A DNA stretch of 64,000 bases, from assembly GCF_026914265.1 (NCBI RefSeq), contig NC_069126.1, positions 39,249,725-39,313,724 of the forward strand, written 5' to 3'. The translations under genes and the position numbers were made by a program. This stretch comes from Mya arenaria (Eukaryota > Mollusca > Bivalvia > Myida > Myidae). Positions 2,270 to 56,100 of this stretch are shown here, one piece after another. The notes beneath the pieces were generated by a model that did not search any database, was not told the DNA's origin, and worked only from the letters and a program-made list of their open reading frames with translations. Within the stretch, counting starts at the first letter, position 1. Each line of letters opens with the position of its first letter.

Positions 2270-3595
2270 GTTAAACAGGGAAAATTGCCATTGCCTGGTG
2301 TAGTAATGTGAGCTCCTGACTAGCCATTGCCTAGTGTGGTAATGTGTGCACCTAACTAACCATTGTCTGGTGTGGTAATGTGTGCACCTAACTAACCACT
2401 GTCTGGTGTGGTAATGTGTGCACCTAACTAACCATTGTCTGGTGTGGTAATGTGTGCACCTAACTAACCATTGTCTGGTGTGGTAATGTGTGCACCTAAC
2501 TAACCATTGTCTGGTGTGGTAATGTGTGCACCTAACTAACCATGGCCTGGTCTGGTAATGTGTGCCCCGGACTAACCATTGTTTGCAGGTTGATAGAAGC
2601 ACCTGGCGGGTTGAATCAGCACCTAAAACATTGCCTGGCGGGTTGATGTTTGCACCTAACTAACCATTGTCTGACGGGTTGATGTCTGCACCTAACTAAC
2701 CATTGTCTGGCGGGTTGATGTATGCATCTAACTAACCATTGTCTGACGGGTTGATTTATGCACTTAATTTATCAATGTGTGGTGGGCTGATGTATGCACC
2801 TAACTAACCATTGTCTGACGGGTTGATGTATGCACCTAACTAACCATTGTCTGGTGGGTTGATGTATGCACCTAACTAACCATTGTCTGGCGGGTTGATT
2901 TATGCACTTAATTTATCAATGTGTGGTGGGTTGATGTATGCACCTAACTAACCATTGTCTGGCGGGTTGATGTATGCACCTAACTAACCATTGTCTGACG
3001 GGTTGATTTATGCACTTAATTTATCAATGTGTGGTGGGTTGATGTATGCACCTAACTGACCATTGTCTGGCGGGTTGATGTATGCACCTAACTAACCATT
3101 GTCTGACGGGTTGATGTATGCACATAACTAACCATTGTCTGATGAATTGATGTATGCATCTAACTAACCATTGTCTGGCGGGTTGATTTATGCACTTAAT
3201 TTATCAATGTGTGGTGGGTTAATGTATGCACCTAACTGACCATTGTCTGGCGGGTTGATGTATGCACCTAACTAACCATTGTCTGACGGGTTGATGTATG
3301 CACCTAACTAACCATTGTCTGACGGGTTGATGTATGCACCTAACTAACCATTGTCTGACGGGTTGATGTATGCACATAACTAACCATTGTCTGATGAATT
3401 GATGTATGCATCTAACTAACCATTGTCTGGCGGGTTGATTTATGCACTTAATTTATCAATGTGTGGTGGGTTGATGTATGCACCTAACTGACCATTGTCT
3501 GGCGGGTTGATGTATGCACCTAACTAACCATTGTCTGGCGGGTTGATGTGTGCACCTTACTTACCATTGTATGGAGAGTTAATTCAGAACGTAAT
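2270..3595. repeat. Intron 1 minisatellite, 36-bp unit
   Basis: About 37 units of a 36-bp repeat (typical unit starts ATTGTCTGGCGGGTTGATG and ends CACCTAACTAACC) fill the 5' part of intron 1. The first units carry GTGTGGTAATGTGTG instead of GCGGGTTGATGTATG. A variant unit (TTTATGCACTTAATTTATC) recurs near 2752, 2897, 3005, 3185 and 3437. The spacings are near multiples of 36 bp, showing higher-order amplification. The element ACTGACC...GGTTG...TATG also occurs across the exon 1 donor site at 2243-2270. Confidence 0.95.
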
Positions 3596-4375
3596 TAACC
3601 ATTGTCTGGTAGGTGAAATCAGCACCTTACAAGCCTTTGTCTGGTGAATTAAATCAGCACCTAACAAGCTATTGTCTGACGGGCAAAATCAGCACCTAAC
3701 AATCCGTTTTCTGGCGGGTAAAATCAGCACGTGACAATCCGTTTGCTGGCACGTTAAATCAGCACATAACAAGCTATTGTCTGGCGGGTTAAATCAGCAC
3801 ATAACAATCAATTGTCTGGCGGGTTAAATCAGCACATAACAATCAATTGTCTGGCGGGTAAAATCAGCACCAAGTTATTGTCTGGCGGATGAAATCAGCA
3901 CCTAACAAGCTATTGTCTGGCGGGTAAAATCAGCACACAACAAGTTATTGTCTGGCGGGCTAAATCAGCACATAACAATCAATTGTCTGGCGGGTAAAAT
4001 CAGCACATAACAATCAATTGTCTGGCGGGTAAAATCAGCACCTTACAATCAATTGTCTGGCGGGTAAAATCAGCACATAACAATCAATTGTCTGGCGGGT
4101 AAAATCAGCACCTTACAATCAATTGTATGGCGGGTAAAATCAGCACACAACAAGTACTTGTCTGGCGGGTTAAATCCGCACCTAACAATCAATTCTCTGG
4201 CGGGTAAAATCAGCACATAACAATCAATTGTCTGGCGGGTTAAATCCGCACCTAACAATCAATTGTCTGGCGGGTAAAATCACCACTTAACAAGCTATTG
4301 TTTGGCGGGTTAAATCAGCACCTAACGAGCTTTTGTCTGACGGGATGATGTTTGCACATATATATGTAGCAATTT
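3596..4375. repeat. Intron 1 minisatellite, about 35-bp subfamily
   Basis: About 21 units related to the preceding array but diverged as a block, with core ATTGTCTGGCGGGTAAAATC followed by AGCACATAACAATCA. The switch between subfamilies is abrupt, near 3590. The array stops about 70 bp before exon 2. Confidence 0.93.
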
Positions 4376-6196: not shown

Positions 6197-7834
6197 ACAC
6201 CTTCTATGTCAGTGGAACGCAAGGCTGAAGGATGACGGCTACTGTGGGATCCAAGACCATGCTATGAAAACAATCTTTTATTTCAGTGGAACGCGAGGCT
6301 GGAGGATGACGGCTTCTGTGCGACCCAGGACCATGCTATGAAAACAATCTCTTATTTCAGTGGAACGCGATGCTGGAGGATGACGGCTAGTGTGGGCTCC
6401 AGGACCATGCTATGAAAACAATATCTTATTTCAGTGGAACGTGATGCTGGAGGATGACGGCTACTGTTGGACCCAGGACCATGCTATGAAAACAATCTCT
6501 TATTTCAGTGGAACGCGATGCTGGAGGATGACGGCTAGTGTGGGATCCAGGACCATGCTATGAAAACAATATCTTATTTCAGTGGAACGTGATGCTGGAG
6601 GATGACGGCTACTGTTGGACCCAGGACCATGCTATGAAAACAATCTCTTATTTCAGTGGAACGCGATGCTGGAGGATGACGGCTAGTGTGGGATCCAGGA
6701 CCATGCTATGAAAACAATATCTTATTTCAGTGGAATGCGGGACTGGAGGATGACGGCTTCTGCGGGATCCAGGACCATGCTATGAAAACAATCTCTTATT
6801 TCAGTGGAACGCGGTGATGGAGGATGATGGCTACTGTTGGATCCAGGACCATGCCATGAAAACAATCTCTTATTTGAGTGGAATGCGGACCTGGAGGATG
6901 ACGGCTTCTGCGGGATCCAGGACCATGCTATGAAAACAATATCTTATTTCAGTGGAACGCGGCGATGGAGGATGACGGCTACTGTTGGACCCAGGACCAT
7001 GCTATGAAAACAATCTCTTATTTCAGTGGAACGTGATGCTGGAGGATGACGGCTACTGTTGGACCCAGGACCATGCTATGAAAACAATATCTTATTTCAG
7101 TGGAATGCGAGGCTGGAGACTGACGGCAACTGCGGGATCCAGGACCATGCTATGAAAACAATCTCTTCTTTCAGTGGAATGCGGGGCTGGAGGATGACGG
7201 CTACTGCGGGATCCAGGACCATGCTATGAAAACAATCTCTTATTTCAGTGGAACGCGGGGATGGAGGATGACGGCTACTGTGGGATCCAGGACCATGCTA
7301 TGAAAACAATCTCTTATTTCAGTGGAACGCAGGACTGGAGGATGACGGCTACTGTTGGATCCAGGACCATGCTATGAAAACAATCTCTTATTTCAGTGGA
7401 ACGCGGGGATGGAGGATGACGGCTTCTGCGGGATCCAGGACCATGCTATGAAAACAATCTCTTATTTTAGTGGAACGCAGGACTGGAGGATGACGGCTAC
7501 TGTTGGATCAAGGACCATGCTATGAAAACAATCTCTTATTTCAGTGGAACGCGGGGATGGAGGATGACGGCTACTGTTGGACCCAGGACCATGCTATGAA
7601 AACAATCTCTTTTTTCAGTTGAACGCGGGGATTGAGGATGACGGCTACTGTTGGATCTCGGACCATCCGATGTACATATTCTCCTTCTATATTTATTTAG
7701 TGGAACGCGGGGATGGCGATGGATGCTACTATGGAATCCAGGACCATGCTATTACATATACACCTTCCAATAGTATTTTACTGTACCGAGGGACCTGAGG
7801 ATGACGGCTACTGAACCTTATTCTTATATTTCAG
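6197..7834 (+). repeat. 74-bp minisatellite carrying exon 3 splice acceptor copies
   Basis: Twenty units at an exact 74-bp spacing (exon-like starts at 6213, 6287, 6361 and so on to 7619) are followed by a less regular unit starting at 7701 and a degenerate one near 7780. Each unit has a pyrimidine-rich tract ending TTATTTCAG, then TGGAACGC.GG.ATGGAGGA, then GGCTACTG.GGGATCCAGGA. This copies the intron 2 acceptor plus the first 16 codons of exon 3, followed by about 25 bp of filler. The encoded peptide matches exon 3 at 14 of 16 residues (DD in place of GG). Four codons differ only silently. The units contain acceptors but no convincing donor. Because 74 is not a multiple of 3, use of an upstream copy would change the reading frame. 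Confidence 0.95.
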
Positions 7835-7957: not shown

Positions 7958-9000
7958 GTAAGGGCTGGAAATTGTCTATTATTGTTTAAAAACTTATCTG
8001 ATACTAAGGCTACGTCGAACCAAACATCAGATCAAAGAAAATTAAAATTGTTCGACGTCGCACCCTGTTCTATTTTTTGAAATAATATAGTTGTATGCCG
8101 GAAATAGTTTTAAGGTAGAATATTGGAGCCATCCTGCGTTCAGTCGGTTGAACTGATGCAAAATGTTTTATGAGCGAATGTCTTTCACAGTTTCAGGTAC
8201 CCACGGCTTACTCGTCTGAACGTAGCGTGACGTTTAAAATGATTTTTAAATTTTTGTTTATGTTGGAGTGGGGCGATCTGCTTAAACAGTTTTAGAAATA
8301 TCACTCATAACCATCGTTATGTGTAAAAGTACTTGATATATTTTACGTGACCCGCTGCCTAATACTCTTAAAGTTATTCACGTGCCCTATAACATAATGT
8401 ATACACTTTTTGGAGGTTAAATGATTGAACTACTTTCACAGTTTAAGAGATAACACTCTCGTATTTGTTGTCATTTGCGACCAAGCAGTTAAAGAGTTGT
8501 GTGCTCCTTATTATTCTATTTACGTTATAGCTATAAGTGGCCTATAACACACTTTGTGGAGCGGATTTTCTGAAATTTGGTTCACATGATTACCATTAAG
8601 ATATTTTTATAAGCCTTAACCAATAGTTACATTTTACATTATGGATATATGGATTTTTGGAGAGAACTACTTCACTTTAAGCTTAAAAACTTGTGAACGC
8701 TAAGGTCTACGGAAATCAAGCTTGGTTATTAGGTTGGCTAGCGAGAGATTAAAGTCGTGGCAACAATGCGCTGAAAATGTGCTTCCGATCAATAACTGAA
8801 GAACGCTCAGTCCAACGGACGTCCAACTTGGTTCCAGTTGTGTTATGAACAATAGACGAACCCTTTTTTTGAAGTCAGTGGGTCAAAGGATGACCAAAGG
8901 ATAACTCATGGTGACCTTGAGGTGAAAAACCGTTCCCATCAATATCAAAAGAACGGTGGGGCACTCAAGTATGTCTTTTTAAAGACACTACCCGAGCACA
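7958..9000. other. Intron 3, 5' part
   Basis: AT-rich sequence with no exon seen. From about 8700 to 8965 it resembles a dispersed bivalve-type repeat (CCGATCAATAACTGAAGAACGC, then GGTGACCTTGAGGTGAAAAACCG, then GAACGGTGGGG). The identity is from memory of similar sequences, not from a search. Confidence 0.45.
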
Positions 9001-9002
9001 TA

Positions 9003-9515
9003 CATGTATTTATGTCCGTGGCAGGGACGATATGCGAGCTGATCACACACATGTATTTATGTCCGTGGCAGGGACGATATGCGAGCTGATCACACACATG
9101 TATTATTGTCCGTGGCAGGGACGAATGCGAGCCGATCACACACATGTATTTATGTCCGTGGCAGGGACGAATGCGAGCCGATCACACACATGTATTTATG
9201 TCCGTGGCAGGGACGAATGCGAGCCGATCACACACATGTATTTATGTCCGTGGCAGGGACGAATGCGAGCCGATCACACACATGTATTTATGTCCGTGGC
9301 AGGGACGAATGCGAGCCGATCCCACACATGTATTTATGTCCGTGGCAGGGACGAATGCGAGCCGATCACACACATGTATTTATGTCCGTGGCAGGGACGA
9401 ATGCGAGCCAATCACACACATATATTTATGTCCGTGGCAGGGACGAATGCGAGCCGATCACACACATGTATTTATGTCCGTGGCAGGGACGAATGCGAGC
9501 CGTTCACATGTATAT
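9003..9515 (+). repeat. 46-bp minisatellite A, diverged exon 4 acceptor copies
   Basis: About 11 units of 46-47 bp contain GTCCGTGGCAG, then GGACGAATGCGAGCCGATC. Compared with the true exon 4 boundary (GGCAG/GGTCCTGGGACGATCTGCGAGCCG), the unit keeps GGCAGG, GACGA and TGCGAGCCG but lacks the GTCCTGG part. It is the most distal and most diverged of three related arrays. The long open frames across it are a by-product of a stop-free unit. Confidence 0.85.
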
Positions 9516-9544
9516 ATATTAATGACAGGATCTTGTGACGACCT

Positions 9545-10340
9545 GTGAGTCGTTGACATATGCTTCCCTGGGAGGGTTGGGACGACCTGTGAGCTGTTGA
9601 CATATTTGCTTATCTTGCAGGGTTTTGGGACGTTCTGTGAGATGTTGCCATATGCTTTCCTGGCAGGGTCCTGGGGCGACCTGTGAGCTGTTGCCATATG
9701 CTTTCCTGGCAGGGTCCTGGGGCGACCTGTGAGCTGTTGCCATATGCTTTCCTGGCAGGGTCCTGGGACGACCTGTGAGCTATTGCCATATGCTTTCCTG
9801 GCAGGGTCCTGGGGCGACCTGTGAGCTGTTGCCATATGCTTTCCTGGCAGGGTCCTGGGGCGACCTGTGAGCTGTTGCCATATGCTTTCCTGGCAGGGTC
9901 CTGGGACGGCCTAAGAGCTGTTGAAAAATATGCTTTCCTGGCCGGGTGTTGTGACGACCTGTGAGTTGTTGACATATGTTTTCCTGACAGGGTGTTGTGA
10001 CGACCCCGAGAGCTGTTGACATATGCTTTCCCGGCAGGGTCTTGGGACGATCTGTGAGCTGTTGACATATGCTTTCCCGGCAGGGTCTTTGGACGATCTG
10101 TGAGCTGTTGACATATGCTTTCCCGGCAGGGTCTTTGGACGATATGTGAGCTGTTGACATATACTTTCATGGCAGGGTCTTGGGACGATATGTGAGCTGT
10201 TGACATATGTTTTCCTGGCAGGGTCTTGGGACGACCTGTGAGCTGTTGACATATGCTTTCCTGGCAGGGTCTTAGGTAGATCATTGATTTGTTGATATAT
10301 ATACTTTCCTGGTAGGGTGTTCCGGTAGGGTAGTGGGACG
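9545..10340 (+). repeat. 46-bp minisatellite B, exon 4 acceptor copies
   Basis: About 17 units contain a pyrimidine tract CATATGCTTTCCTGGCAG followed by GGTCCTGGGACGACCTGTGAG. The exon-like part differs from the start of exon 4 at about four of 27 positions. One change makes CGACCT/GTGAGC, so each unit also carries a donor-like GTGAGC only 16 bp after its acceptor. Confidence 0.9.
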
Positions 10341-10599
10341 ATCTTTCGAGTGTAATTCGAAAAATACTTTCTTTATAACTAAGCAAGATTGTGACATACC
10401 TTGTATTATGAAATTTGGTCATACTTAATTGTTATTTTAAAGAAACTATACGAATAATAGACAAAATAAAGTTTACATTGACCTTTAGGTGAGTTAATGA
10501 TTGTTTGAACAATAAAATGGAAAGACGGAACACACGATCTAAAATGAAGTTGATTGCAAATGTTTAAGAAGTAAGTTTTATATGCATGCGAGTAGTGCT

Positions 10600-11335
10600 A
10601 CCAAACCTTGTGACTCAATGTACTTATGTATTATCGGTGAGTTATATGAGACCTTTCATTGGATAGCGTTTGGTGCCCCTGGGCTCAAGGTCAAGGTCAC
10701 TGAAACTAAACATAGAAAAACGGTTAAAACTGAATAACTTTAGTGAGGGTTGACATATCTTAACCAAATTTCATAAACATAATAATGGATGAGTTTATGG
10801 ATATATTTCATGGGATTGCAAGGCCAAGTTCACTGTTACTAAGAAGGAAAAATGGTGAGTACTGAATAACTTAAGTTAGGGTTGACATATATTTACTCAA
10901 CTTGGTATTTAGGAAGAGTTTACGGAGACCTTTCATGGGTTTGCGTTTAGGGCTCTTGGGGTCAAGGTCAAGGTCACTGTTACTAAAAATAGAAAAACGG
11001 TTGAAACCGAAAAACGTTAGGATTGACACATCTTGACTAAACTTGGTATTTAGGAATAGTTTATGGATACCTTTCATTGGGTTGCGTTTGGGGCTCGTGG
11101 AATCAAGGTGAAGGTCACAGAAACTAAAGTAATAGAAAAACGGTTAAAACTGAATTACTTTAGATAGGGTTCATATATCTTGACCAAACTTGATATGTAT
11201 GAATAGTTTATTGAGGACCTCCATGGGACTGCATTTGAGCCCATACTAAAATTAGAAAGAAAAAAAACAAAACTTCTTCTGTTAATCATTTAAAATCTGG
11301 TTTCGTCGCATTGCGGCGTTTCTAGTTTACAAATG
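10600..11335. repeat. Dispersed repeat, about 180-bp internal units
   Basis: Three to four tandem segments share CTTTCATTGG.TTGCGTTTGG, GTCAAGGTCAAGGTCACTG, AGAAAAACGGTTAAAACTGA and GGGTTGACATATCTTGACC. The end is TTTCGTCGCATTGCGGCGTT, a small palindrome. The sequence resembles a repeat family common in bivalve genomes, by memory. It separates acceptor arrays B and C. Confidence 0.75.
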
Positions 11336-12454
11336 TTTTACTGGCAGGTTCCCGGTCCGTTCACTCGAAAATAATTTATTGGCAGAGTTCTCGGGACGTT
11401 CTGCGAGCCGTTCACTGAAAAATAATATACTGGAACGATCTGCGAATCATTCACATAAAAATGTTTTCTAAAAGAGTGTCTTGGTATGATCTGCAATACT
11501 TTCACATTTATTTACCTTTCAATGTATTACTGGCAGGGTCCCGGGACGATCTTCGAGCCGTTCACCTTTCAATGTATTACTTGCAGGATCCCGGGACGAT
11601 CTGCGAGCCGTTCACCTATCAATGTATTACTGGCAGGCTCCCGGGACGATCTCCGAGCCGTTCACCTTTCAATGTATAACTGGCAGGGTCCCGGGACGAT
11701 CTGCGAGCCGTTCACCTATCAATGTATTACTGACAGGGTCCCGGGACGATCTCCGAGCCGTTCACCTTTCAATGTATAACTGGCAGGCTCCCGGGACGAT
11801 CTCCGAGCCGTTCACCTCTTAATGTATTACTGGCAGGCTCCCGGGACGATCTGCGAGCCGTTCACCTTTCAATGTATTACTGGCAGGCTCCCGGGACGAT
11901 CTGCGAGCCGTTCACCTATCAATGTATTACTGGCAGGGTCCCGGGACGATCTGCGAGCCGTTCACCTATCAATGTATTACTGGCAGGGTCCCGGGACGAT
12001 CTGCGAGCCGTTCACCTTTCAATGTATTACTGGCAGGGTCCCGGGACGATCTGCGAGCCGTTCACCTATCAATTTATTACTGACCTATCAATGTATTACT
12101 GGCAGGGTCCCGGGACGATCTGCGAGCCGTAAACCTATCAATGTATTACTGGCAGGCTCCCTGGACGATCTGCGAGCCGTTCACCTATCAATGTATTACT
12201 GGCAGGGCTCCCGGGACGATCTGCGAGCCGTTCACCTATCAATGTATTACTGGCAGGGTCCCGGGAAGATCTCCGAGCCGTTCACCTGTCAATGTATTAC
12301 TGGCAGGGTCCCGGGACGATCTGCGACCTGTTCTGTTAAAAATGTTTTGCGGGCAGGGTTCTGACACGATCTGCGAATCATTTACATAAATGTATTCTTG
12401 GTAGGGTCTTGGGATGATCTGCGAGGCTTTCAAATATATATGTTTCCTTGGCAG
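11336..12454 (+). repeat. 50-bp minisatellite C, near-exact exon 4 acceptor copies
   Basis: About 17 regular 50-bp units from 11532, plus a few degenerate ones before and after. Each unit is TTACTGGCAG followed by GGTCCCGGGACGATCTGCG and AGCCGTTC, then CACCTATCAATGTA. The 27-bp exon-like part differs from the true start of exon 4 at one silent position (CCC for CCT). One unit near 12062 is truncated. The last copies, near 12352 and 12404, lead directly into the real acceptor at 12454. A unit of 50 bp shifts frame with each copy, and all three frames stay open for hundreds of bases. Confidence 0.95.
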
Positions 12455-13291
12455 GGTCCTGGGACGATCTGCGAGCCGTTCGGGGGAGAAGGGACGGGTC
12501 TTAAGACCTGGAATTTCTCACTGGGCTGGGAACCGGATCTTTGGTACACGCTTGTTACGCGCCGCTGGGGCCACGACGACCACTCGTACTTCGGCTTTTG
12601 GGTGTACAAACACATGGCACAGGAATGGACGCATCTGGTCACGCTAGACTACCCCGTGCCTGATGTGTGCTTTGACACGCTTTCATGTAGCTTCCTTGAG
12701 GATTGGGAGGGAGGCGGTGACGAAGTTAGAAGAGTCCACTTCCAGAACGGCTTCAAACACAACCTGACCGGCGGCTGGATGCCGTTTACTGCAGCCGCCT
12801 TTAGTGTGGTCCGCGAAGCCTCCAGTCGCGCATATGAGAACAATTTCGACACTGGCGTTCTCGACGGTACGTTCTATCTTCAGTCGGGCGGAGATACAAT
12901 ACCTACAACGACAGCCGTCGATGGCGGAACGATCCGCCGAGAGATGACGCCAAAACCGGATATGCTTCCCATATGCTGCTACCTGACATCCGTCACAGAT
13001 ACGGAAATCACGTGGGAAATACCGGAAGGAAGTATCCCTCAGTTTCAATACATTATTTATATTGACCGCAGCATCTACAAACAGGAAGTTAACTCTGAAC
13101 ACAGACTGTGTATGTTTAAAGCGCCTCCGACAGAAGTGGTCGAACTACTTGTTGAGGATATTTATGGGCGCAGTGTGCGCTCTAAGTTTAGGGTTCGAGA
13201 GGAGAAAAAGCGTACCAAATTGAGGACAAGAATGGACGTTTACATGCCAAGCTCAACTCTTCTGGCTAAACATCCTAGTAAATCATACTAA
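12455..13291 (+). CDS. DUF3472 protein, exon 4 (DUF3472 domain and C-terminus)
   Basis: Acceptor TTTCCTTGGCAG opens the exon in phase 0 and TAA ends it at 13289-13291. It encodes residues 183-460. The start, GPGTICEPFGGEGTG then LKTWNFSLGWEPD, is the hallmark of DUF3472 (GGEGTG plus an aromatic-rich 'PW..G..Y..LV' segment). YFGFWVYKHMAQEWTHLVTL, FLEDW and VHFQNGF follow, as expected for this beta-sandwich domain (about residues 185-345). The C-terminal part (about 370-440, ICCYLTSVTDTEITWEIPEG to LLVEDIYGRSV) looks like a fibronectin III or Ig-like sandwich. A basic tail (REEKKRTKLRTR) ends the protein. Biochemical function is unknown for the family. No transmembrane segment is visible. Confidence 0.9.
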   Translation, partial: GPGTICEPFGGEGTGLKTWNFSLGWEPDLWYTLVTRRWGHDDHSYFGFWVYKHMAQEWTHLVTLDYPVPDVCFDTLSCSFLEDWEGGGDEVRRVHFQNGFKHNLTGGWMPFTAAAFSVVREASSRAYENNFDTGVLDGTFYLQSGGDTIPTTTAVDGGTIRREMTPKPDMLPICCYLTSVTDTEITWEIPEGSIPQFQYIIYIDRSIYKQEVNSEHRLCMFKAPPTEVVELLVEDIYGRSVRSKFRVREEKKRTKLRTRMDVYMPSSTLLAKHPSKSY

Positions 13292-18141: not shown

Positions 18142-19582
18142 AACAGAGAGCCATCCGGACCCGGTTCGAGCAGATGGATCCCCAGTCTGACAGAGAGCCA
18201 TCCGGACCCGGTTCGAGCAGATGGATCCCCAGTCCGACAGAGAGCCATCCGGACCCGGTTCGAGCAGATGGATCCCCAGTCCGACAGAGAGCCATCCGGA
18301 CCCGGTTCGAGCAGATGGATCCCCAGTCTGACAGAGAGCCATCCGGACCTGGTTCGAGCAGATGGATCCCCAGTCCGACAGAGAGCCATCCGGACCCGGT
18401 TCGAGCAGATGGATCCCCAGTCTGAGAGAGAGCCATCCGGACCTGGTTCGAGCAGATGGATCCCCAGTCCGACAGAGAGCCAAGAGCCATCCGGACCCGG
18501 TTCGAGCAGATGGATCACCAGTCCGACAGAGAGCCAAGTGCCATCCGGACCCGGTTCGAGCAGATGGATCCCCAGTCCGACAGAGAGCCATCCGGACCCG
18601 GTTCGAGCAGATGGATCCCCAGTCCGACAGAGAGCCATCCGGACCTGGTTCGAGCAGATGGATCCCCAGTCCGACAGAGAGCCATCCGGACCTGGTTCGA
18701 GCAGATGGATCCCCAGTCCGACAGAGAGCCATCCGGACCCGGTTCGAGCAGATGGATCACCAGTCCGACAGAGAGCCAAGAGCTATCCGGATCCGGTTCG
18801 AGCAGATGGATCCCCAGTCCGACAGAGAGCCATCCGGACCCGGTTCGAGCAGATGGATCCCCAGTCCGACAGAGAGCCATCCGGACCTGGTTCGAGCAGA
18901 TGGATCCCCAGTCCGACAGAGAGCCATCCGGACCCGGTTCGAGCAGATGGATCACCAGTCCGACAGAGAGCCAAGAGCCATCCGGATCCGGTTCGAGCAG
19001 ATGGATCACCAGTCTGACAGAGAGCCATCCGGTACTGGTTCGAGCAGATGGATCCCCAGTCTGACAGAGAGCCATCCGGACCTGGTTCGAGCAGATGGAT
19101 CCCAGTCCGACAGAGAGCCATTCGGACCCGTTCGAGCAGATGGATCCCAAGTCTGACAGAGAGCCATCCGGACCCGGTTCGAGCAGATGGATCACCAGTC
19201 CGACAGAGAGCAATCCGGACCTGGCTCGAGCAGATGGATCCCCAGTCCGACAGAGAGCCATCCGGACCCGGTTCGAGCAGATAGATCCCCAGTCCGACAG
19301 AGAGCCATCCGGACCCGGTTCGAGCAGATGGATCCCCAGTCTGACAGAGAGCCATCCGGACCCGGTTCGAGCAGATGGATCCCCAGTCCGACAGAGAGCC
19401 ATCCGGACCCGGTTCGAGCAGATGGATCATCAGTCCGACAGAGAGCCATCCGGACCCGGTTCGAGCAGATGGATCATCAGTCCGACAGAGAGCCATCCGG
19501 ACCCGGTTCGAGCAGATGGATCATCAGTCCGACAGAGAGCCATCCGGACCCGGTTCGAGCAGATGGATCCCTAGTCCGAACT
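18142..19582. repeat. 47-bp minisatellite, stop-free in most frames
   Basis: About 30 highly similar units of 47 bp (CCATCCGGACCCGGTTCGAG, then CAGATGGATCCCCAGTCCGA, then CAGAGAG), some with a small AAGAG(C) insertion. Because 47 is not a multiple of 3, three units make 47 codons. All + frames and at least two - frames stay open for 100-300 codons. An ATG-led hydrophobic stretch (MYSIFLNLFSSILLVVMA) directly precedes the array at 18087, like a signal peptide. Openness in so many frames means the open frames are no evidence for a protein. Confidence 0.95.
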
Positions 19583-37437: not shown

Positions 37438-37445
37438 ATATTACC
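37438..37445. repeat. Target site duplication, left copy
   Basis: ATATTACC directly abuts the left end of the transposon. The same 8 bp abut the right end at 45653-45660. Eight base pairs is the characteristic duplication length of P-superfamily insertions. Confidence 0.93.
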
Positions 37446-37985
37446 CACAGGTGGTTAGCGTGTGGTAATTTTTTTATATATAATATACTGAAAGGTAAAC
37501 AACTCAATGTATGGGAAAATGATACCAACATTAATCTGACCGCTGTTTTTCCCTTAATTATGCACCGATTTTAACAAACAAGGTACTGTTACAAAGCTAA
37601 CACATTTATCTACACAAAAACAATAGGCAATACTCCATTTTTTCAAACTACATACAAGTTTAAGCCTTCCAAACGTCCGAAATCGTAACTAGGAAAACAT
37701 CTGATTGCATTTTGGTTCGTGGCTACAAAGGCTTAACATGCCATAGCCCGATGAATTGTAACGAAATTAGGGCGTATGTAGATGCAAACGATGGAACACA
37801 ATAAGTGTCCACCGGTAATAACTCATGATATCAACATACTAACTTTATACGGACCTTTTATTTGCAACGAAGCGATCGACGACAGCTACACCGCCATGTC
37901 AGTTTTATGCACATGCGCAAATTTTTGTAACGAGTAATTTCATTGGCTGTCAACTGTTAGCGTGTTGGGCCCGGCTTCGCTGATA
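37446..37985. repeat. Left terminal inverted repeat, 540 bp
   Basis: It matches 45100-45652 in reverse complement from CACAGGTGGTTAGCG to GGCCCGGCTTCGCTGATA. It contains ACACCGCCATGTCAG, a YY1-like promoter motif, about 140 bp before the helicase ATG, plus a CG-rich stretch. Both ends of the element therefore carry the same possible promoter. Confidence 0.95.
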
Positions 37986-38045
37986 GTGCAGTTGAGTAGA
38001 GGGGTACCAAATATTTCCCGCGATATGTCAAATCTGTAAACAAAA

Positions 38046-39021
38046 ATGAATCTTAATGCAGAACAAATAAAAGCCATCGAAATAAGCTGCATTGGACATA
38101 ATCTTTTAATTTTAGGGACCGCAGGCACTGGGAAAACCCACGTCATTAAACATATTGTCGAAACTCTAAAAAGTAAGGGAAAAAATGTGTCGGTAACAGC
38201 AACAACGGGGATAGCATGTTGTTTGCATGCAAATGCAACAACAATACACAGGTGGTCAGGTATTGGGGACGGCAGGTATGGGGTGAACGATATTGCCAAT
38301 ATTGTGAAGCATAATGCCCAGTACTTAGATGTGAGAAAAAGAATATTAGAAACTGATGTACTTGTAATTGACGAGTGTTCAATGTTAAGTAGAAAATTAT
38401 TTGACTCTCTCAATGAAGTCTGTAAAATGAAAAACCCTGAACTTTTATTTGGAGGAATTCAGCTGATTCTCTGTGGTGATTTTACACAGTTACCACCAGT
38501 ACCAAACTACTTATATGCTGAATCTGGGGGATTTTGCTTTAAAAGTGAACTGTTTAGCAGATTATTAACTCACAGAGTTGTGCTCACACAAATGAATCGA
38601 CAATCAGACCCACAACTTATCAAAGCTATCCATGAGGTATCAGTTGGAACAATAACAAATGAAACAGAAAAGTTCCTAACCAGTTTAAACAGAAGTATCC
38701 CTGCAAGAACAGATACCATCAAGCTTTTTACTAGAAACGACCAAGTAGACACATACAACAGAAAAAAAATTGAAGATTTTCCCGGTGCAATGTATGAATT
38801 TGTGTCCGAAGATAATGGTGATAGAAAACATTTAAATCAAATGCTAGCTCCAAAAACATTGTGGCTTAAAAAGGGTGCACCTATTATCCTAATTCGAAAC
38901 TTAACAGGTAAACTTGTTAATGGGCTACAAGGAACTGTTCATGACATCACAGAAAATGGACTAATTATAGACTTTCCTTCATGCAAGCTTAAAGTTCCTA
39001 TTGAAAAGATGAAATTTTCCG
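38046..39021 (+). CDS. PIF1-like helicase-PHD protein, exon 1
   Basis: The ATG lies 60 bp inside the left terminal repeat in a good context (AAAATGA). The exon encodes residues 1-325 of a 956-residue protein (exons 38046-39021, 39391-39496, 39810-40016, 43334-44915). Superfamily 1B helicase motifs are complete: Walker A GTAGTGKT at 24-31, TATTGIA at 51-57, Walker B VLVIDECSM at 105-113, GDFTQLPPV at 144-152, and LTQMNRQSD at about 180. PIF1-family enzymes are ATP-dependent 5'-3' DNA helicases. The exon ends in phase 1 at CCG/GTAAGC. There is no Rep/HUH nuclease, so this is not a Helitron protein. Confidence 0.93.
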
Positions 39022-39390
39022 GTAAGCATTTTTAAAGTCAAAATTTTAAATTATTTACCAGAATAAAGCATCAGTCATTGACTATAATTATAAATATGTA
39101 TGGCTTTGTTTCAGAAAATGGCTAATTTACACAACAACTCTTGAAAATTTCTTACCAACAGAAACGCAAAGAACCTTATTGAAATAAATTAATTTTCAAT
39201 TTTTAAGCCGGTTCAATTACTTAAAAGTTTCAAAGTTAATGCTGCTCTGATATATGGGTACGAATACAGTATCAGTAATTATGTTACACACGTCCCTAGC
39301 GCCTTTGAACCGCATAGTTTATTATTATATTTGTACACAATATTCACTTGCTCTTGAAAAATGGCTAATAAATGCTTTTTTAAATTTCAG

Positions 39391-39496
39391 TATTCAGTCC
39401 AAGGAAGAACTGTGATGTTGCCACCAGAGTGCAGTACCCAGTCAAACTAAGTTTTGCAATTAGTATACATAAGTCGCAGGGACTGACTCTAGAAAG
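39391..39496 (+). CDS. PIF1-like helicase-PHD protein, exon 2
   Basis: Acceptor AAATTTCAG and donor AAG/GTTTGT bound an exon with phase 1 in and 2 out. It encodes VFSPRKNCDVATRVQYPVKL then SFAISIHKSQGLTLE. The last part is helicase motif V of the PIF1 family (A.SIHK(S/A)QG.T), which is needed for the ATPase fold, so this intron interrupts the helicase domain itself. Confidence 0.9.
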
Positions 39497-39809
39497 GTTT
39501 GTTAATCAATCAGTAATACATAATAACTGCTACACTCTAGTTGAGTGTCCCCATTATCCCAATCAGACTGCATTGAATGTGAAGGCTTGATTAAGGCCTA
39601 AAATAATGTTTGGTTTGGTGAAAAGATCAGAAAGTTCTGAAGTAGTGTCTTAAACCCCTAGGGGCGCACGTTTTGGCTAGGCAGGGATGTGTTGCCCCAA
39701 AAAACACTTTTACCCCTAATTATGACTGTACATATATATACCATAATTTGTCAATAAGAAAAATATAAAATCAATTGTTCATTTCTAACATGATATGTAT
39801 CTGTTTCAG

Positions 39810-40016
39810 TGTGGCGATTGATTGTCACCAGATTTTCAAGCCAGGACAACTAGGCGTAGCTATTGGACGTGTCAGAAGTTCACAGAACTTACAAGTTATA
39901 AACTTTAATATGAAGAAATGTGTCATCCCTCAACCACCAGATGTCATTAACTTCCTGGGTGAGGAGTCTGGGGTGCTACATGATGACAGAAGTTGTTGCT
40001 GCGGTCAAGAAACTAG
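39810..40016 (+). CDS. PIF1-like helicase-PHD protein, exon 3
   Basis: Acceptor ATCTGTTTCAG and donor CTAG/GTAAAT bound the exon, with phase 2 in and 2 out. It begins S-VAIDCHQIFKPGQLGVAIGR then VRSSQNLQV, which is PIF1 motif VI (normally 'Q.YVALSR'), and so ends the helicase domain. It continues PQPPDVINFLGEESG and a Cys cluster (SCCCGQE). The TAA at 40018 lies in the intron, and the frame resumes at 43334 with matching phase. Confidence 0.88.
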
Positions 40017-40369
40017 GTAAATATTGTGTACCAAATATATAAGTACTGGTACTTACCATTTATCTTGCTGCTTAAGCTGGGGCTGTATCCACACAATGGG
40101 TAGTCACTTAGTGCTGCAGGCCTTCTCATAGGCCTTCTCATAGACCTTTATCAATCCATATGTATTATTCTCATAATGATTTAATGTTATGTAATGAAAT
40201 TTGCTACCCATGCAGCATAACACATTTGATGTATATATGTATATATAATATCCACTTCAGTACATATGCACTTAAGTTCACTTCTCAGTCACTCAATCTT
40301 CCAAGATGGGCATGATTTATGAAAAAGTTATCTCAAAACTTAGTTTGTGGCACACAATTCCTACAATAA

Positions 40370-42777
40370 TCACACTCGTATGACTTTTATTTTCTTATAT
40401 TCTGTAGATTCAACTTTTCGTTTTCGAGCTGTATCTGTCTTTCTGATTGAACAGTTGTATGGAGAAGCAGCATATTTATTTTTGCCAGCATTACTTTTTT
40501 GAGAGACTGTATTTTGTCCTAATATTATACTATTTAGAGCCTGCCGATACTGGTTTGCATTAGGGTTACTATTTGCGCCATGATATGTTGCCCTCTGTTG
40601 GTTAAATGTATTTTCTATTACATCCGAGTTGAGTAGTCCTGGGGTAATGAAGACCTTTGAAGGCTTTTTCAGAAGTAATTTTGCTAATTCACAAAATCCA
40701 ATTATGCATGATTGTATGTCCTCATGACACTGATGTGACATTAATTGTTTCTGACGTTCCTTTGCAGACAATGCTGTAGCACCTAAAGAACATTCTTGCC
40801 ATTCATGAAACCAATTTGCAATTTCAAGAAGTTCATGTAGTCTTTGATCATCCAGTGATTTAATAGGACGCATGTCTTTAAAAATGTCAATAAGTTTTGA
40901 AGTATGTTTCAGTAAGTCGATTACTCCATCTAAAACTGAACCATTTGCTCCCAGAGTTTGTTGATACTGTGACATAAGATGAAGCATATCATTGTCCAAA
41001 ACTTCCTCCGCTAAATGATTCCGCATTTTTTGCTGGTTTGTAGGGAAAATATGGTCACCACTTAGTTTTCTGTGAAGAGCTATGCCATTAGTTTTGTCCC
41101 ATTTGTAGCTGTCTATAAACATCTGCCACTGAATTGTGTGCTGGCTGGGAAGAGTTAATAATCTGGTAGAGGTTTTATGCTGACCACTTTTTAACACATT
41201 ATTTCTGATCTTTTTTATCACATGCTTACAGTCCATTATGAAAACCACTTCTCCAAATGTACAAGAAGAACATGTTTTGAATTTTTTCTCATAGCTTGTA
41301 TTCATATGCATGAATGTTCTGTTACTCTGAGCACCGTCCATGCAAATGTAAGATGTGGTAAAACCATACAAATTTAAAATGTCAACAGCTTCCCAGAACA
41401 GTGAATAAATCTCAGGTGCTTGAACACCATCCGAAATAAAGTGCGCAAATGGAAAGCGAAAGCCAATTATACCAAGGAATACAAATTGCAGGGCATGTGT
41501 ACCTAGTACCTTTTCATTTTTTCCTTTCCGCATAGTGTTCGAGAAGTTTCCCTCTTCTCCTAAATCAGTGAAGCCAGATAATTCAATAACATCACCATTC
41601 TTGCACAATTGAAAGTCACTTTGAATTGACATTTCATCTATGATGATGCCCCCATAGTATTCTTCTGGGAGAAGATTTCGCAGTTTCGCTTCGTCTAACA
41701 TCCATGTTAGCATATCTTTGTCGAAGCCAACATGCTGCCTAACACGGTTCTTGTATTGAATAAGAGTGGATTTTGATGGCATGATCAGGTACTGACTCTC
41801 CCGAAAACTTTCATATGACTGAGCTGCGGCAGTACCACTGGAGACACACCTTTATCATGCCTTCACTCCAGCGTCTTCCTCGTGGGTCTTTGTCGGCATT
41901 TTTGGCTTGATTAACAATTAGCTCGATCATTTCCTTTGTTGCACCTGGTATAAGCTTTTTCACATTTTCATTTATTTCCATGTCATTGTCATGTGTTGCT
42001 GATGTTAATGGTTCTAACTTTTCTTTATTGTTCCAATTTTCCTGATTCACTGACATATTAACACTCACATTTTCTGGACCTATCATTGTCATCTTCTTAC
42101 ACTTAATACAAGTGCTGCTAAAAGCATTGAGTGATATCACCCTATTACAAAGTTTTGTTCTTACAGATCTTTTGCAGTTACCATATTTGTCTGTAATATT
42201 TTCCAGAACATGAAATCTAGTCAAAGACACATTTTTAGATACAGTCACACCTTCACACAGAGGAATTAATTGAACTGCTTTAATAACAGTGTTTAAACAT
42301 TCTGAAGTGGACTGGTAGTTTTTAGAAATGTTTACAGCATTTAGATCTATTTGTGTTCCACTAATGCTAAGCTGAAATTCACCATTACTTTGGAAAAATA
42401 TGCATTTTTTAATACAGTTGCCATTGCTTTTTGTATTTGAGTCAAGTTCACAAGTAACACTTGTTGATTCACTTTTGATAGATGTACACACTGTTGTTTC
42501 CAGTATTCCTTTCACTTTGACAAAATCAAATAGTTCTACTTCATTCATATCTACTGGCTTCAACCGTAACCCAATATATGTGGTTGTCATGGAATTACGG
42601 GATTTTTGTTTCCTTTCCTTTCCTACATTTGGATAAACCTTTGTGATATGGTCCACAAATACACGTTTGGATGCTGTGTGGCTTGACCCGGACTCCTGCA
42701 TCTCAAAATGATATGCATCGTAGAGATGATTGACTTCCACACGTCCACTTGTGTCTTCCACAATGCGTGTCAATAAC
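40370..42777 (-). CDS. P-element/THAP9-type transposase, exon 2 (one frame break)
   Basis: Acceptor TTCTATTTAAG is followed by frame 42777-41811, and then by a second frame from about 41845 to the stop at 40370. The frames overlap near 41815-41850, after RGRRWSEGMIKVCLQWY and before AQSYESFRES. One small indel, or less likely an unusual splice, separates them. The second frame holds the RNase H-like core: IIIDEMSIQ (first Asp, near 41637), CMDGAQSNR (second Asp, near 41335) and SDVIENTF (D-x2-E, near 40620), followed by GANSNPNANQYRQALNS. This spacing and the 'NP...(Q/F)..AL' end match P transposase and THAP9. A short Cys-x2-Cys (TCIKCKKM) is near 42100. P transposases cut and paste DNA at the element's ends. 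Confidence 0.87.
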
Positions 42778-43185
42778 CTTAAATAGAAAACACAATATTA
42801 TGTGATTCGTAATGAAAAATGCAGTATTTGATTATAATCAGAATGCTTGATATTTGTTATGTTTTTATTGACAACAATAAAGAAACAAAATATCATTTTG
42901 AGGAATGTGCAGACTGATCTGGATCTACACTGGTTGATGAACATTAAATATGTTTCTATTGAGTAAGATGTAATTTATGTAGTATTGTCTTGTCTGTGAC
43001 ACCAAAATAATGTCATTAATATTATGCCATGTCTTTGATATATAAAAACTCCAATAAAATGCACATACAACAGTTTATCTCTACAATTTATATAAAATAC
43101 TAATTAAAAGTATTTCATTCATGTTTGTGCACTCAAATCTGAATGTTAAAACCTCTATACTTATTAAATATGAGATACCCTTTAC

Positions 43186-43253
43186 CTCACATTTAAGTTA
43201 TATGTGCCACCAGTGCAAATCCATATCATCGAGCAAAAATTTGCAGACTCCAT
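43186..43253 (-). CDS. P-type transposase, exon 1
   Basis: The ATG at 43253-43251 has a strong context (AACAATGG) and opens 22 codons (MESANFCSMIWICTGG..) to donor GTGAG/GTAAAG. It ends in phase 2, exactly what the acceptor at 42778 needs. The joined N-terminus continues LLTRIVEDTSGRVEVNHLYD, then SKRVFVDHITKVYPNVGKE and TTYIGLRL. A THAP zinc finger is not seen. The LYDAYHF...VFVDHITKVYPN...YIGLRL pattern recalls a winged helix of the RFX/D5 type, which could replace THAP as the DNA-binding domain. That last point is an inference. Confidence 0.65.
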
Positions 43254-43333
43254 TGTTCACTATAAACTGTTTAAATAAGTTTTCATTTTAACAATTGCTG
43301 CAGACTTTAAAAGTAACTAGTTTATTTTCACAG

Positions 43334-44915
43334 ATTAACAGACAGCTGTTCCCTGACAGCACAGAACCTTACAGTGGAGGAAATTATTGAGGAAGTGACA
43401 GAACTGGATGAGCAGGTACAGGAGGATGAGGATTTTGACTTGGAGTTTGATGATGTGATCCGTATGATTGATTCAACTCCAAGTGATTTACCAGATCTAC
43501 CAAATGATTTAAATGTTGAAGACATGTTGAGTTCACTTCAATGTAAAAATGTTCAAACAACTAAACAGCTAAACACTAACAATATACTGAAAATAATAAA
43601 TCAGACTAAATACATCCAATTCTGTAAGCAAGAATACACTAAGCTCTCAAAAATGGTTGAAGATTTAAAGATTGATCCTTCAAAACCTGTGCAAAGTAAA
43701 CAGCAAACAGAATTCTACTCTAAAGTGCATGAGTATCACACAAGTTCTGAGTTTCGAATGAATTGTCTAAATTTCTTTGAAAATGTGATCTTTACTGAAG
43801 AACACTTACATATATGCTTTAATATCTCAGTTCAGATAAGAAAATATATACTAGGGAAAAAAGCTGAGCTATTTCCAGTTAGTGCCCGGAAGATAACAGA
43901 TAGAAAAGTAACTAATAGTTCAGATGCAAGGGTTAGATATATTGGAGGTTACTGTGTTGCAAAGGTAAGACACAAGTACATGGAAAAGAAAACTAGTTAT
44001 ATGTACAAGACAGATGAAAGCAGCCAGGTCCAATACCACGAAGCTGTGTTAGCAGTCAATGTTATTGATTCACTAAAGGTAGAAGAATACTATATTCAAC
44101 AAACCACAAGTAACACAGAGTCACTTCTAGATGTTAGTAGAAGGCAAGTCCAAAATAGGTCACTTACCAATATATCAGATCAGGTGTTTACAGTATTCCA
44201 AAGGTTGACTGAAAAGTGTTTAGAATTTTTAATTGATGAACATTTGAATAAATATGGGAGCAATTTGTACCAGGTTCTAACAGACAACATTATTAGTGAC
44301 AATGATCTTAATCAACAATTTTGTACTGTGGTCAGACAAAGTTTTTTGCAAAAAGAAGAATTTGATGAAACTTGTCAAAGTGGAAAATTAAATGACAGTA
44401 TAATTGGAACCATATACAAAAAAATTATAAAACTCTTTCACATGGTAATGCTAAATCAATTTAGGAAGGATATGCTGGAGTCATTCAATGTTGAGAAAAA
44501 AATGGCACATCGAAAGCAGATCAGGGTGTCCTCAAAAGGCTCAAAATCTAAACATCCAACATCTACACTACAGCATGAGGAGCCAAAGCCTGGAACTTCC
44601 AGTGGATCTGTTGGCGGGGCATCATCCCGTATCACAAAAAGAAAAGTACAGGACTTGAATGACAGTTCAGAAGAGGACATAAATGTGTTGAGTGTGAATG
44701 AAATAGAACACAGTCATGTCAATGAAAGTACTGAATCTTGTAAAATATGTAAATTGACAGAGTATCAGGCCCCGCATCTAACTGAATGGATTAGCTGCGA
44801 CGGATGTGATGGATGGCTACATCGTAAATGTGCAGGCCTTCAAAATCATTTTAAGTGGCAAAAATTTAATCGATCTGGTGTTAAATTTTACTGTAACGAT
44901 TGTGGAGGTTGTTGA
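43334..44915 (+). CDS. PIF1-like helicase-PHD protein, exon 4 (middle region and PHD finger)
   Basis: This encodes residues 430-956. It begins with an acidic linker (EEIIEEVTELDEQVQEDEDF), followed by a helical region of about 330 residues with a RVRYIGGYCVAKVRHKYMEK motif that I cannot assign to a named domain. A Ser/Lys-rich low-complexity stretch follows (about 820-890). The C-terminal 58 residues form a PHD finger: CKIC, then CDGCDGWLHRKC, then CNDC (C4HC3 order). PHD fingers usually bind histone H3 tails, which suggests chromatin targeting. The open frame can also be read as a separate gene, but no promoter is seen and the phase and acceptor favour fusion to the helicase. TGA is at 44913 and AATAAA at 45026. 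Confidence 0.88.
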
Positions 44916-45025
44916 CTGTTCTTATCACATATTATTGCACATGCATTTGAGTTTATACATACCATGTAACAACGCACATTTTGTACAAATACCGTTGCAA
45001 CAACTGGTCGTTTATAAATTTCTTC

Positions 45026-45031
45026 AATAAA
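45026..45031 (+). terminator. Polyadenylation signal of helicase-PHD gene
   Basis: AATAAA lies 111 bp after the stop codon and 69 bp before the right terminal repeat. Confidence 0.6.
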
Positions 45032-45099
45032 CAAATCGTCTACTTTTACTTTCAGTTTTCTATTTCCGGTAGTATGATTCCCACTTGTATACATACATG

Positions 45100-45652
45100 T
45101 ATCAGCGAAGCCGGGCCCAACACGCTAACAGTTGACAGCCAATGAAATTACTCGTTACAAAAATTTGCGCATGCGCATAAAACTGACATGGCGGTGTAGC
45201 TGTCGTCGATCGCTTCGTTGCAAATAAAAGGTCCGTATAAAGTTAGTATGTTGATATCATGAGTTATTACCGGTGGATTGTGTTCCATCGTTTGCATCTA
45301 CATACGCCCTAATTTCGTTACAATTCATCGGGCTATGGCATGTTAAACCTTTGTAGCCACGAACCAAAATGCAATCAGATGTTTTCCTAGTTACGATTTC
45401 GGACGTTTGGAAGGCTTAAACTTGTATGTAGTTTGAAAAAATGGAGTATTGCCTATTGCCTATTGTTTTTGTGTAGATAAATGTGTTAGCTTTGTAACAG
45501 TACCTTGTTTGTTAAAATCGGTGCATAATTAAGGGAAAAACAGCGGTCAGATTAATGTTGGTATCATTTTCCCATACATTGAGTTGTTTACCTTTCAGTA
45601 TATTATATATAAAAATAGATAAAAAAAAATTACCACACGCTAACCACCTGTG
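45100..45652. repeat. Right terminal inverted repeat, 553 bp
   Basis: Reverse complement of 37446-37985. It differs by a tandem GCCTATT duplication, a missing 6-bp segment and a few substitutions. It carries the same YY1-like CATGGCGGTGT motif, so the right end may also fire a promoter directed into the element. Confidence 0.95.
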
Positions 45653-45660
45653 ATATTACC
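45653..45660. repeat. Target site duplication, right copy
   Basis: ATATTACC, identical to 37438-37445. Confidence 0.93.
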
Positions 45661-54612: not shown

Positions 54613-54907
54613 CTAACACGCCTTGAAATTTTGGACACACAGGTGTCGAAAGTCTTTTTCATAAAACAAAGTCCAAACACGGGTTAACTCGACTGTTCTC
54701 CTAAAATCAATGCACCGAAATTTCTGAAAGACTGTGGGAATGGTATATTGGGTGTCGAGAGTAAGGAAGGCCTTCATTTAATGAACATATGGTATCTAGA
54801 CATATTATTATGATGTGGTAAACTTTCGCAATTGCCCAGATCTAAATTTTGTAAAAATAAAACTCCGTGATGTTTTGGAAGTGTGGCGCAGGAAGGTGCG
54901 CAAATGT

Positions 54908-56100
54908 TATGGTGACAGCAGCTCCTCGGTGGTTATGGTGACAGCAGCTCCTCGGTGGTTATGGTGACAGCAGCTCCTCGGTGGTTATGGTGACAGCAGC
55001 TCCTCGGTGGTTATGGTGACAGCAGCTCCTCGGTGGTTATGGTGACAGCAGCTCCTCGGTGGCTATGGTGACAGCAGCTGCTCGGTGGTTATGGTGACAG
55101 CACCTCTTCGGTGGTGATGGTGACAGCAGCTCTTCGGTGGTTATGGTGACAACAGCTCCTCGGTGGCTATGGTGAAAGCAGCTCCTCGGTGGCTATGGTG
55201 ACAGCAGCTCCTCGGTTGTAATGGTGACAGCAGCTCCTCGGTGGCTATGGTGATAGCAGCTCCTCGGTGGCTATGGTGACATCAACTCCTCGGTGGCTAT
55301 GGTGACAGCAGCTCCTCGGTGGCTATGGTGACAGCAGCTCCTCGGTGGCTATGGTGACAGCAGCTCCTCGGTGGTAATGGTGACAGCAGCTCCTCGGTGG
55401 CTATGGTGACAGCAGCTCCTCTGTGGCTATGGTGACAACAGCTCCTCGGTGGTTATGGTGACAGCAGCTCCTCGGTGGCTATTGTGACAGTAGTTCCTTG
55501 GTGGCTATGGTGACAGCAGCTCCTCGGTGGTTATGGTGACAGCAGCTCCTCAGTGGTAATGGTGACTCCTCGGTGGTTATGGTGACAGCAGCTTCTCGGT
55601 GGCTATGGTGACAGTAGCTCCTCGGTGGCTATGGTGACATCAGCTCCTCGGTGGTTATGGTGACAGCAGCTCCTCGGTGGCTATGGTGACAGCAGCTCCT
55701 CGGTGGTTATGGTGACAGCAGCTCCTCGGTGGTTATGGTGACAGCAGCTCCTCGGTGGCTATGGTGACAGCAGCTCCTCGGTGGTTATGGTGAAAGCACC
55801 TCCTCGGTGGTTATGGTGACAGCAGCTCTTCGGTGGTTATGGTGACAGCAGCTCCTCGGTGGTTATGGTGACAGCAGCTCCTCGGTGGTTATGAGGACAG
55901 CAGCTCCTCGGTGGTTTTGGTGACAGCAGCTCCTCGGTGGTTTTGGTGACAGCAGCTCCTCGGTGGTTATGGTGACAGCAGCTCCTCGGTGGTTATGGTG
56001 ACAGCAGCTCCTCGGTGGTTATGGTGACAGCAGCTCCTCGGTGGTTTTGGTGACAGCAGCTCCTCGGTGGTTATGGTGACAGCAGCTCCCCGGTGGTTTT
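54908..56100. repeat. 26-bp minisatellite, about 45 units
   Basis: Unit GGTGACAGCAGCTCCTCGGT + GGTTAT. Variants at the GGTTAT/GGCTAT position alternate in blocks, one unit near 55564 is shortened, and the edges are cleaner than the middle. Most frames contain stops or are interrupted, so it is not coding. Confidence 0.96.

Follow-up and report, generated by a model that had tools for sequence, protein, structure and literature searches.

The stretch of Mya arenaria DNA analysed here, 64,000 nucleotides of contig NC_069126.1 (positions 39,249,725 to 39,313,724, assembly GCF_026914265.1) and hereafter called the window, holds a transposon with two genes on opposite strands. One encodes a transposase with a catalytic core of the P superfamily. 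The other is a spliced gene predicted to encode a PIF1 helicase ending in a PHD finger, and the transposase gene sits antisense inside its 3.3-kb third intron. In window coordinates, with expectation values given as E, the features are:

37438–37445, no strand, left 8-bp target-site duplication ATATTACC, an exact match to the right one
37446–45652, the whole transposon, flanked on both sides by ATATTACC
37446–37985, plus strand, left terminal inverted repeat of 540 bp
38046–39021, plus strand, exon 1, PIF1 helicase, with PF05970 at about 38082–38609
39391–39496, plus strand, exon 2, helicase motif V; diverged copies are split in a similar way
39810–40016, plus strand, exon 3, helicase motif VI, placed by its splice borders
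40370–42777, minus strand, recognisable part of the transposase gene, in two overlapping frames (42777–41811 and 41851–40370; 2-bp deletion)
41309–41731, minus strand, P-type RNase H N-terminal domain PF21787 (E 2e-11), with the IDEM and MDGAQSNR motifs
42555–42776 (approximate), minus strand, RFX-type winged-helix DNA-binding region, from alignment to P0001
43334–44915, plus strand, exon 4: a conserved middle region, then the PHD finger and the stop codon
44739–44903, plus strand, PHD finger (C4HC3; Pfam PHD E 1e-4, 22.7 bits)
45100–45652, minus strand, right terminal inverted repeat of 553 bp
45653–45660, no strand, right 8-bp target-site duplication ATATTACC, an exact match to the left one

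A first-pass annotation made from the sequence alone had described an exact 8-bp duplication and inverted ends within terminal repeats of about 540 bp, and both descriptions hold. The termini read CACAGGTGGTTAGCGTGTGG, and the 540- and 553-bp repeats differ by two mismatches and three small indels. It had also proposed asking whether other copies lie between such duplications. The 1.216-Gb Mya assembly, in which all search counts are lower bounds, contains four full-length copies of 8118–8207 bp at 99.1–99.5% identity, each with both genes and each between a different perfect 8-bp duplication (ATATTACC, CGCGAAAT, AATGAAAT and AACTGAAA). The element moves as a unit, with 8-bp duplications. The window copy has an open helicase frame, and compared with the three other full copies it lacks 2 bp in the transposase gene, which disrupts that frame. 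In those three the transposase frame is also broken, and the helicase frame carries one stop (one copy) or is frameshifted (two copies).

Searching the genome with the left repeat recovered eight full ends, which are those of the four copies, together with one 168-bp remnant and three tiny elements. The latter are 109–117 bp long, consist only of the outermost ends of the element, form nearly perfect palindromes and are flanked by 8-bp duplications:

L018, 1501–1617, mini-element
L019, 1501–1609, mini-element
L020, 1429–1537, mini-element

Since such end-only elements with 8-bp duplications exist, the outer approximately 50 bp seem to suffice for mobilisation in trans. Two of the three lie on C10, about 0.54 Mb apart, with 10-bp flanks that mirror each other, and therefore probably represent a single insertion that was later inversely duplicated. 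A 10-mer, GTTAGCGTGT, occurs at the outer and inner edges of the terminal repeats (about 37455 and 37957; 45120 and 45635). It could be a candidate transposase site, and we offer it only as a lead.

The transposase core belongs to the P superfamily, an assignment that rests on Pfam and on a predicted fold. Besides the PF21787 match, it has the conserved D, D and E and the C/DxxH of a P-type RNase H core; D381, D481 and E722 (P0001 numbering) are invariant across 29 aligned relatives. This is the check that had been suggested for settling the superfamily. The earlier assignment to a P/THAP9 transposase stands for the catalytic core and fails for the DNA-binding domain: no C2CH signature of a THAP zinc finger is present in the six frames of the element, and the N-terminus is an RFX winged helix instead. 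Because no THAP was found, the element is placed in the P superfamily by its core and not in the canonical P element/THAP9 group. The GTP-binding insertion domain PF21788 was matched in P0008 (E 2.2e-6) and gave no match in the window piece, P0001, P0069 or P0101; it is precomputed in 16 of 120 relatives among the matches listed, and the alignment of the predicted fold spans model residues 280–756. A search of PDB sequences with the single transposase piece gave no match, and a profile search returned only RFX. A further 5′ transposase exon upstream is to be expected and is possible; one was sought upstream in the window element, and none was settled. Two transposase relatives (P0006 and P0034) come from records labelled as Sedimenticola metagenome-assembled genomes, possibly host DNA in symbiont assemblies.

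The four predicted exons of the partner gene have GT/AG borders and matching phases and would give a single 956-amino-acid frame. The closest public protein, P0121 (‘PIF1-like protein, partial [Mya arenaria]’), matches 72% of the query at 98% identity. The gene model behind it, apparently on C14 where the L026 copy lies, connects the same exons. The spliced structure, the PHD finger and the complete set of PIF1 motifs that the first-pass annotation had read in this gene were thus all recovered. The window protein holds Walker A, Walker B, GDFTQLPPV, HKSQGLT and QLGVAIGR as well as a C4HC3 pattern. It matches PF05970 (E 9e-31) and the Pif1 2B domain PF21530 (E 2.5e-7). The match to solved PIF1 structures (E 4e-56) is far better than that to the Helitron Helraiser (3e-17), which places the helicase nearer to cellular PIF1. 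A tree of 50 rows, chosen among the matches listed, separates the window protein and 26 family members from 23 cellular and bacterial PIF1 outgroup rows with a branch support of 100/100.

Relatives covering 75–99% of the query are found in Mercenaria, Mytilus, Argopecten, Saccostrea, Mizuhopecten, Pinctada and further bivalves, several with a precomputed PHD; that of Mercenaria (989 amino acids, PHD present) is 38% identical over 99%. The exon-4 part used alone as a query retrieved 29 relatives. Its middle region contains strongly conserved motifs (RYxGGYC, NQFRKD and MAHRK among them) and matches nothing convincingly in Pfam or among PDB sequences. The PHD finger, at 22.7 bits, scores slightly below the Pfam curated cut-off of 24, and Pfam PHD is detected at E ≤0.1 in 16 of 21 aligned relatives. 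A profile of the PHD part matches the solved PHD domains of TAF3, MLL, Pygopus and DIDO, which are readers of histone H3 methylated at lysine 4. Strict motif patterns among 26 relatives were matched by 14 for Walker A, 23 for Walker B, 20 for GDFxQLPPV, 23 for motif V, 19 for motif VI and 8 for PHD; the shortfall arises in part because many records are partial. A pattern scan of contigs from bacterial genomes and from viruses gave 68 and 62 matching stretches, respectively, none of which was confirmed as a relative.

The association of the two genes extends well beyond the window family. Of 20 diverged Mya transposase loci, 14 were fetched; each of them has helicase and/or PHD parts as well, on the strand opposite the transposase. 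All three parts, with the transposase in between, are present at 11 of them; within the stretch fetched, L042 has no PHD match, and L043 and L044 have no helicase match. These loci represent five further families, each with 2–4 copies at 92–98% identity. In one family a copy of 9800 bp is complete, with a perfect duplication, TCCTTGAG, and a terminal match of 30/30; in another, a 9629-bp copy on C6 has an 8-bp duplication with a single-base difference. In the window family, 4/4 full copies have the 8-bp duplication of the P superfamily, as does one complete copy from another family; in the C6 copy it is kept at 7/8. For the remaining three families (F4, F5 and F6), as for the C9 and L033 copies, a search for ends found none. 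In the two diverged families examined in detail, the helicase-PHD proteins are about 33–46% identical in their main stretches. A self-complementary repeat of about 360–390 bp lies between the transposase and the PHD exon in two diverged copies (2656–3016 of L027; 6839–7224 of L028), and pieces resembling it sit elsewhere in other families.

Across the genome, the 94 transposase matches group into 56 loci, and a helicase exon of the family lies within 10 kb of 33 of them, against 0.043 expected under uniform scatter. The count used all 94 transposase matches, all 78 PHD matches and 62 of 123 helicase matches (E up to about 1e-14). The window orientation is kept in 31 of the 33. A helicase and/or PHD part lies within 10 kb of 42 of the 56 transposase loci. 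On the earlier question of whether the two genes always co-occur, the pair recurs in diverged families, mostly nested, and 14 loci have neither partner part at this distance. Among the 24 loci with all three parts on opposite strands, 20 are nested and four carry the transposase to one side of the helicase-PHD gene. Because of these four, and because the helicase lies within open frames of 1041 amino acids at two Mya loci, the nested layout may derive from two genes that once lay side by side. Protein matches also place a transposase together with helicase or PHD on four contigs of exactly equal length, apparently shared, outside the window, three of them in the 5–20 kb class, where about 0.055 was expected; this count took 120 of 196 transposase matches, 42 of the 120 helicase matches listed out of 762, and 26 of 29 exon-4 matches, namely those absent from the full-protein search. 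Co-occurrence and conserved layout make the PIF1-PHD partner a long-standing component of the element lineage. As four duplication-flanked copies and diverged families all hold the pair, the helicase cannot be explained as a lone host gene or by chance nesting, either of which would have overturned the original description.

Cut-and-paste transposons with helicases have precedents: AcademH and KolobokH likewise carry an accessory helicase (PMC10045372, PMC9587614, PMC10799480). Their transposases belong to superfamilies other than that of the window element. AcademH makes duplications of 9 or 10 bp (PMC10045372), which rules it out for an element with 8-bp duplications, and KolobokH encodes RecQ (PMC9587614), downstream of a Kolobok transposase, and is ruled out by the PIF1 helicase and the P-type core. 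PMC10799480 assigns one joint set of domains (DEAD, Helicase_C, PIF1 and Helitron_like_N) to AcademH, KolobokH or Helitron. RAGL transposons, those of molluscs included, likewise encode a transposase and, as a second protein within the same element, a partner with a PHD domain (PMC7204232). Unlike the window element, they have a RAG1-type transposase, a kelch-PHD partner without helicase and a 5-bp duplication, and this identity was rejected. Helitrons likewise carry a PIF1-family helicase, use an HUH endonuclease and have neither inverted repeats nor target duplications; the window element has both, and no HUH-type match is among the Pfam matches listed. From the Drosophila P element and THAP9 it differs in the RFX-type winged helix in place of THAP, the inverted repeats of about 540 bp and the second gene. 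Among the results listed from the open-access literature searched, with Repbase outside its scope, there was no P element with PIF1, PHD or RFX, nor any element that combines a P-type core and an RFX DNA-binding domain with a PIF1-PHD partner.

What the partner does may be approached through the life of P elements, the textbook case of a transposon whose copy number grows as the host refills the excision gap. The double-strand gap left by their excision is often filled in again from the sister chromatid. We judge it reasonably probable that the window element is a two-gene cut-and-paste transposon of the P superfamily whose PIF1-PHD partner aids the refilling of the donor site after excision. 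The transposase, with its RFX-type winged helix and P-type RNase H core, would excise the element and insert it with an 8-bp duplication by a chemistry presumed from its family. The PIF1-PHD protein would most likely act after excision, driving long displacement-loop or break-induced-type synthesis from the sister chromatid through an element of 8–10 kb with long inverted repeats, so that the donor site may regain a full copy rather than suffer loss or internal deletion. An element of this size with inverted repeats of about 540 bp would profit from its own PIF1-family helicase in restoring full copies. The PHD finger may couple repair, or target choice, to modified histone H3, much like the RAG2-like partners found in RAG-type transposons (PMC7204232), and the near-identical repeats, with both genes running inward, may provide one shared promoter. 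In PMC8951532, PIF1 is described as required for break-induced replication in yeast, as promoting it in flies, and as needed for efficient P-element gap repair when POL32 is absent. A bolder proposal, tentative and in our judgment short of probable, is a lineage with its own engine for break-induced replication or gap repair, in which sister-chromatid refilling would turn ‘cut and paste’ effectively into ‘copy’ and the PHD finger would tie repair or insertion to marked chromatin. Both the gap-repair and the chromatin role are inferred by analogy.

Several observations weigh against this explanation. The 109–117 bp derivatives indicate that internal loss still occurs, and none of the four copies in the assembly has both genes open. 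Walker A was matched in 14/26 relatives and the strict PHD pattern in 8/26, in part because many records are partial. The Drosophila effect of PIF1 depended on the absence of POL32 (PMC8951532). Besides the 14/56 transposase loci lacking both partner parts within 10 kb, 10/47 helicase loci have neither transposase nor PHD and 6/42 PHD loci neither transposase nor helicase within that distance; many unpaired loci are fragments, and some may be elements doing without the partner, domesticated genes or host genes. Within families, ratios of nonsynonymous to synonymous divergence (dN/dS) range over 0.28–3.64 and are mostly 0.5–1, roughly neutral, and are noisy because the frames are broken. Between families, the PHD part gives 0.12–0.46 in 4/7 pairs with estimable dS; in the remaining comparisons dS is saturated and dN is 0.39–0.86 for the helicase and PHD parts. 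Selection thus gives mixed signals.

The helicase-PHD protein could instead serve mainly in chromatin or silencing, the PHD finger reading histone H3 and the helicase aiding in reaching, targeting or keeping open chromatin, with no gap repair involved. The resemblance of the PHD part to the histone readers named above is consistent with this, as are the PHD-bearing RAG2-like partners of mollusc RAG transposons, of which the sea-urchin counterpart binds H3 methylated at lysine 4 (PMC7204232). Retention of a PIF1-type helicase is left unexplained, however, and the PHD finger itself is unevenly detected (by Pfam in 16/21 relatives, by the strict pattern in 8/26), and we hold this role to be unlikely, if a serious contender. 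A single past capture of a host PIF1-like gene, since carried along as a passenger with no part in mobility, is improbable. PIF1 is also a host gene type, and the decay of both genes inside the young window family, at roughly neutral ratios, would fit a passenger; yet the pair has been retained across several families at the divergence seen in the two examined, the proteins are fused across bivalves, helicase frames of 1041 amino acids are open at two Mya loci, and the between-family PHD ratios, where dS is not saturated, lie well below one.

Helicase-driven, peel-and-paste transposition of the Helitron kind, with the P transposase as a nick-maker, is very improbable. Helitrons do pair an endonuclease with a PIF1-family helicase, and PF23343, a replication-associated protein family, is weakly matched in 2/21 relatives of the PHD part (best E 0.089; E 0.1 in a separate Pfam search), which is at chance level. 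Against it, 8-bp duplications and long inverted repeats are present on the four full copies and on a complete copy from another family, the Pfam matches listed for the window pieces include no HUH-type domain, and the helicase is nearer to cellular PIF1 than to Helraiser. To two unrelated elements nested by chance we give hardly any credence: the antisense nesting in the window might suggest it, but the same arrangement is repeated in 11/14 diverged loci fetched and 20/24 loci genome-wide, with a single pair of ends and a single duplication per unit.

An element encoding a helicase of the family implicated in this repair would open to direct test whether DNA transposons govern the repair of their own gaps. 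The joining of a P-type core to an RFX DNA-binding domain is of interest in itself. A number of the genes that bear a PIF1 annotation in bivalves probably belong to transposons rather than being host helicases, and could be mistaken for a host-gene expansion; transposon-family proteins named PIF1 or PIF1-like in bivalve genomes include P0121, P0142, P0146 and P0152.

Elsewhere in the window there are large tandem arrays at 18143–19579, 54906–56098, 6205–7666, 8992–12481 and 2288–4344, with units of 47, 26, 74, mostly 46–50, and 35–36 bp, respectively, and these produce long spurious open reading frames in several frames.

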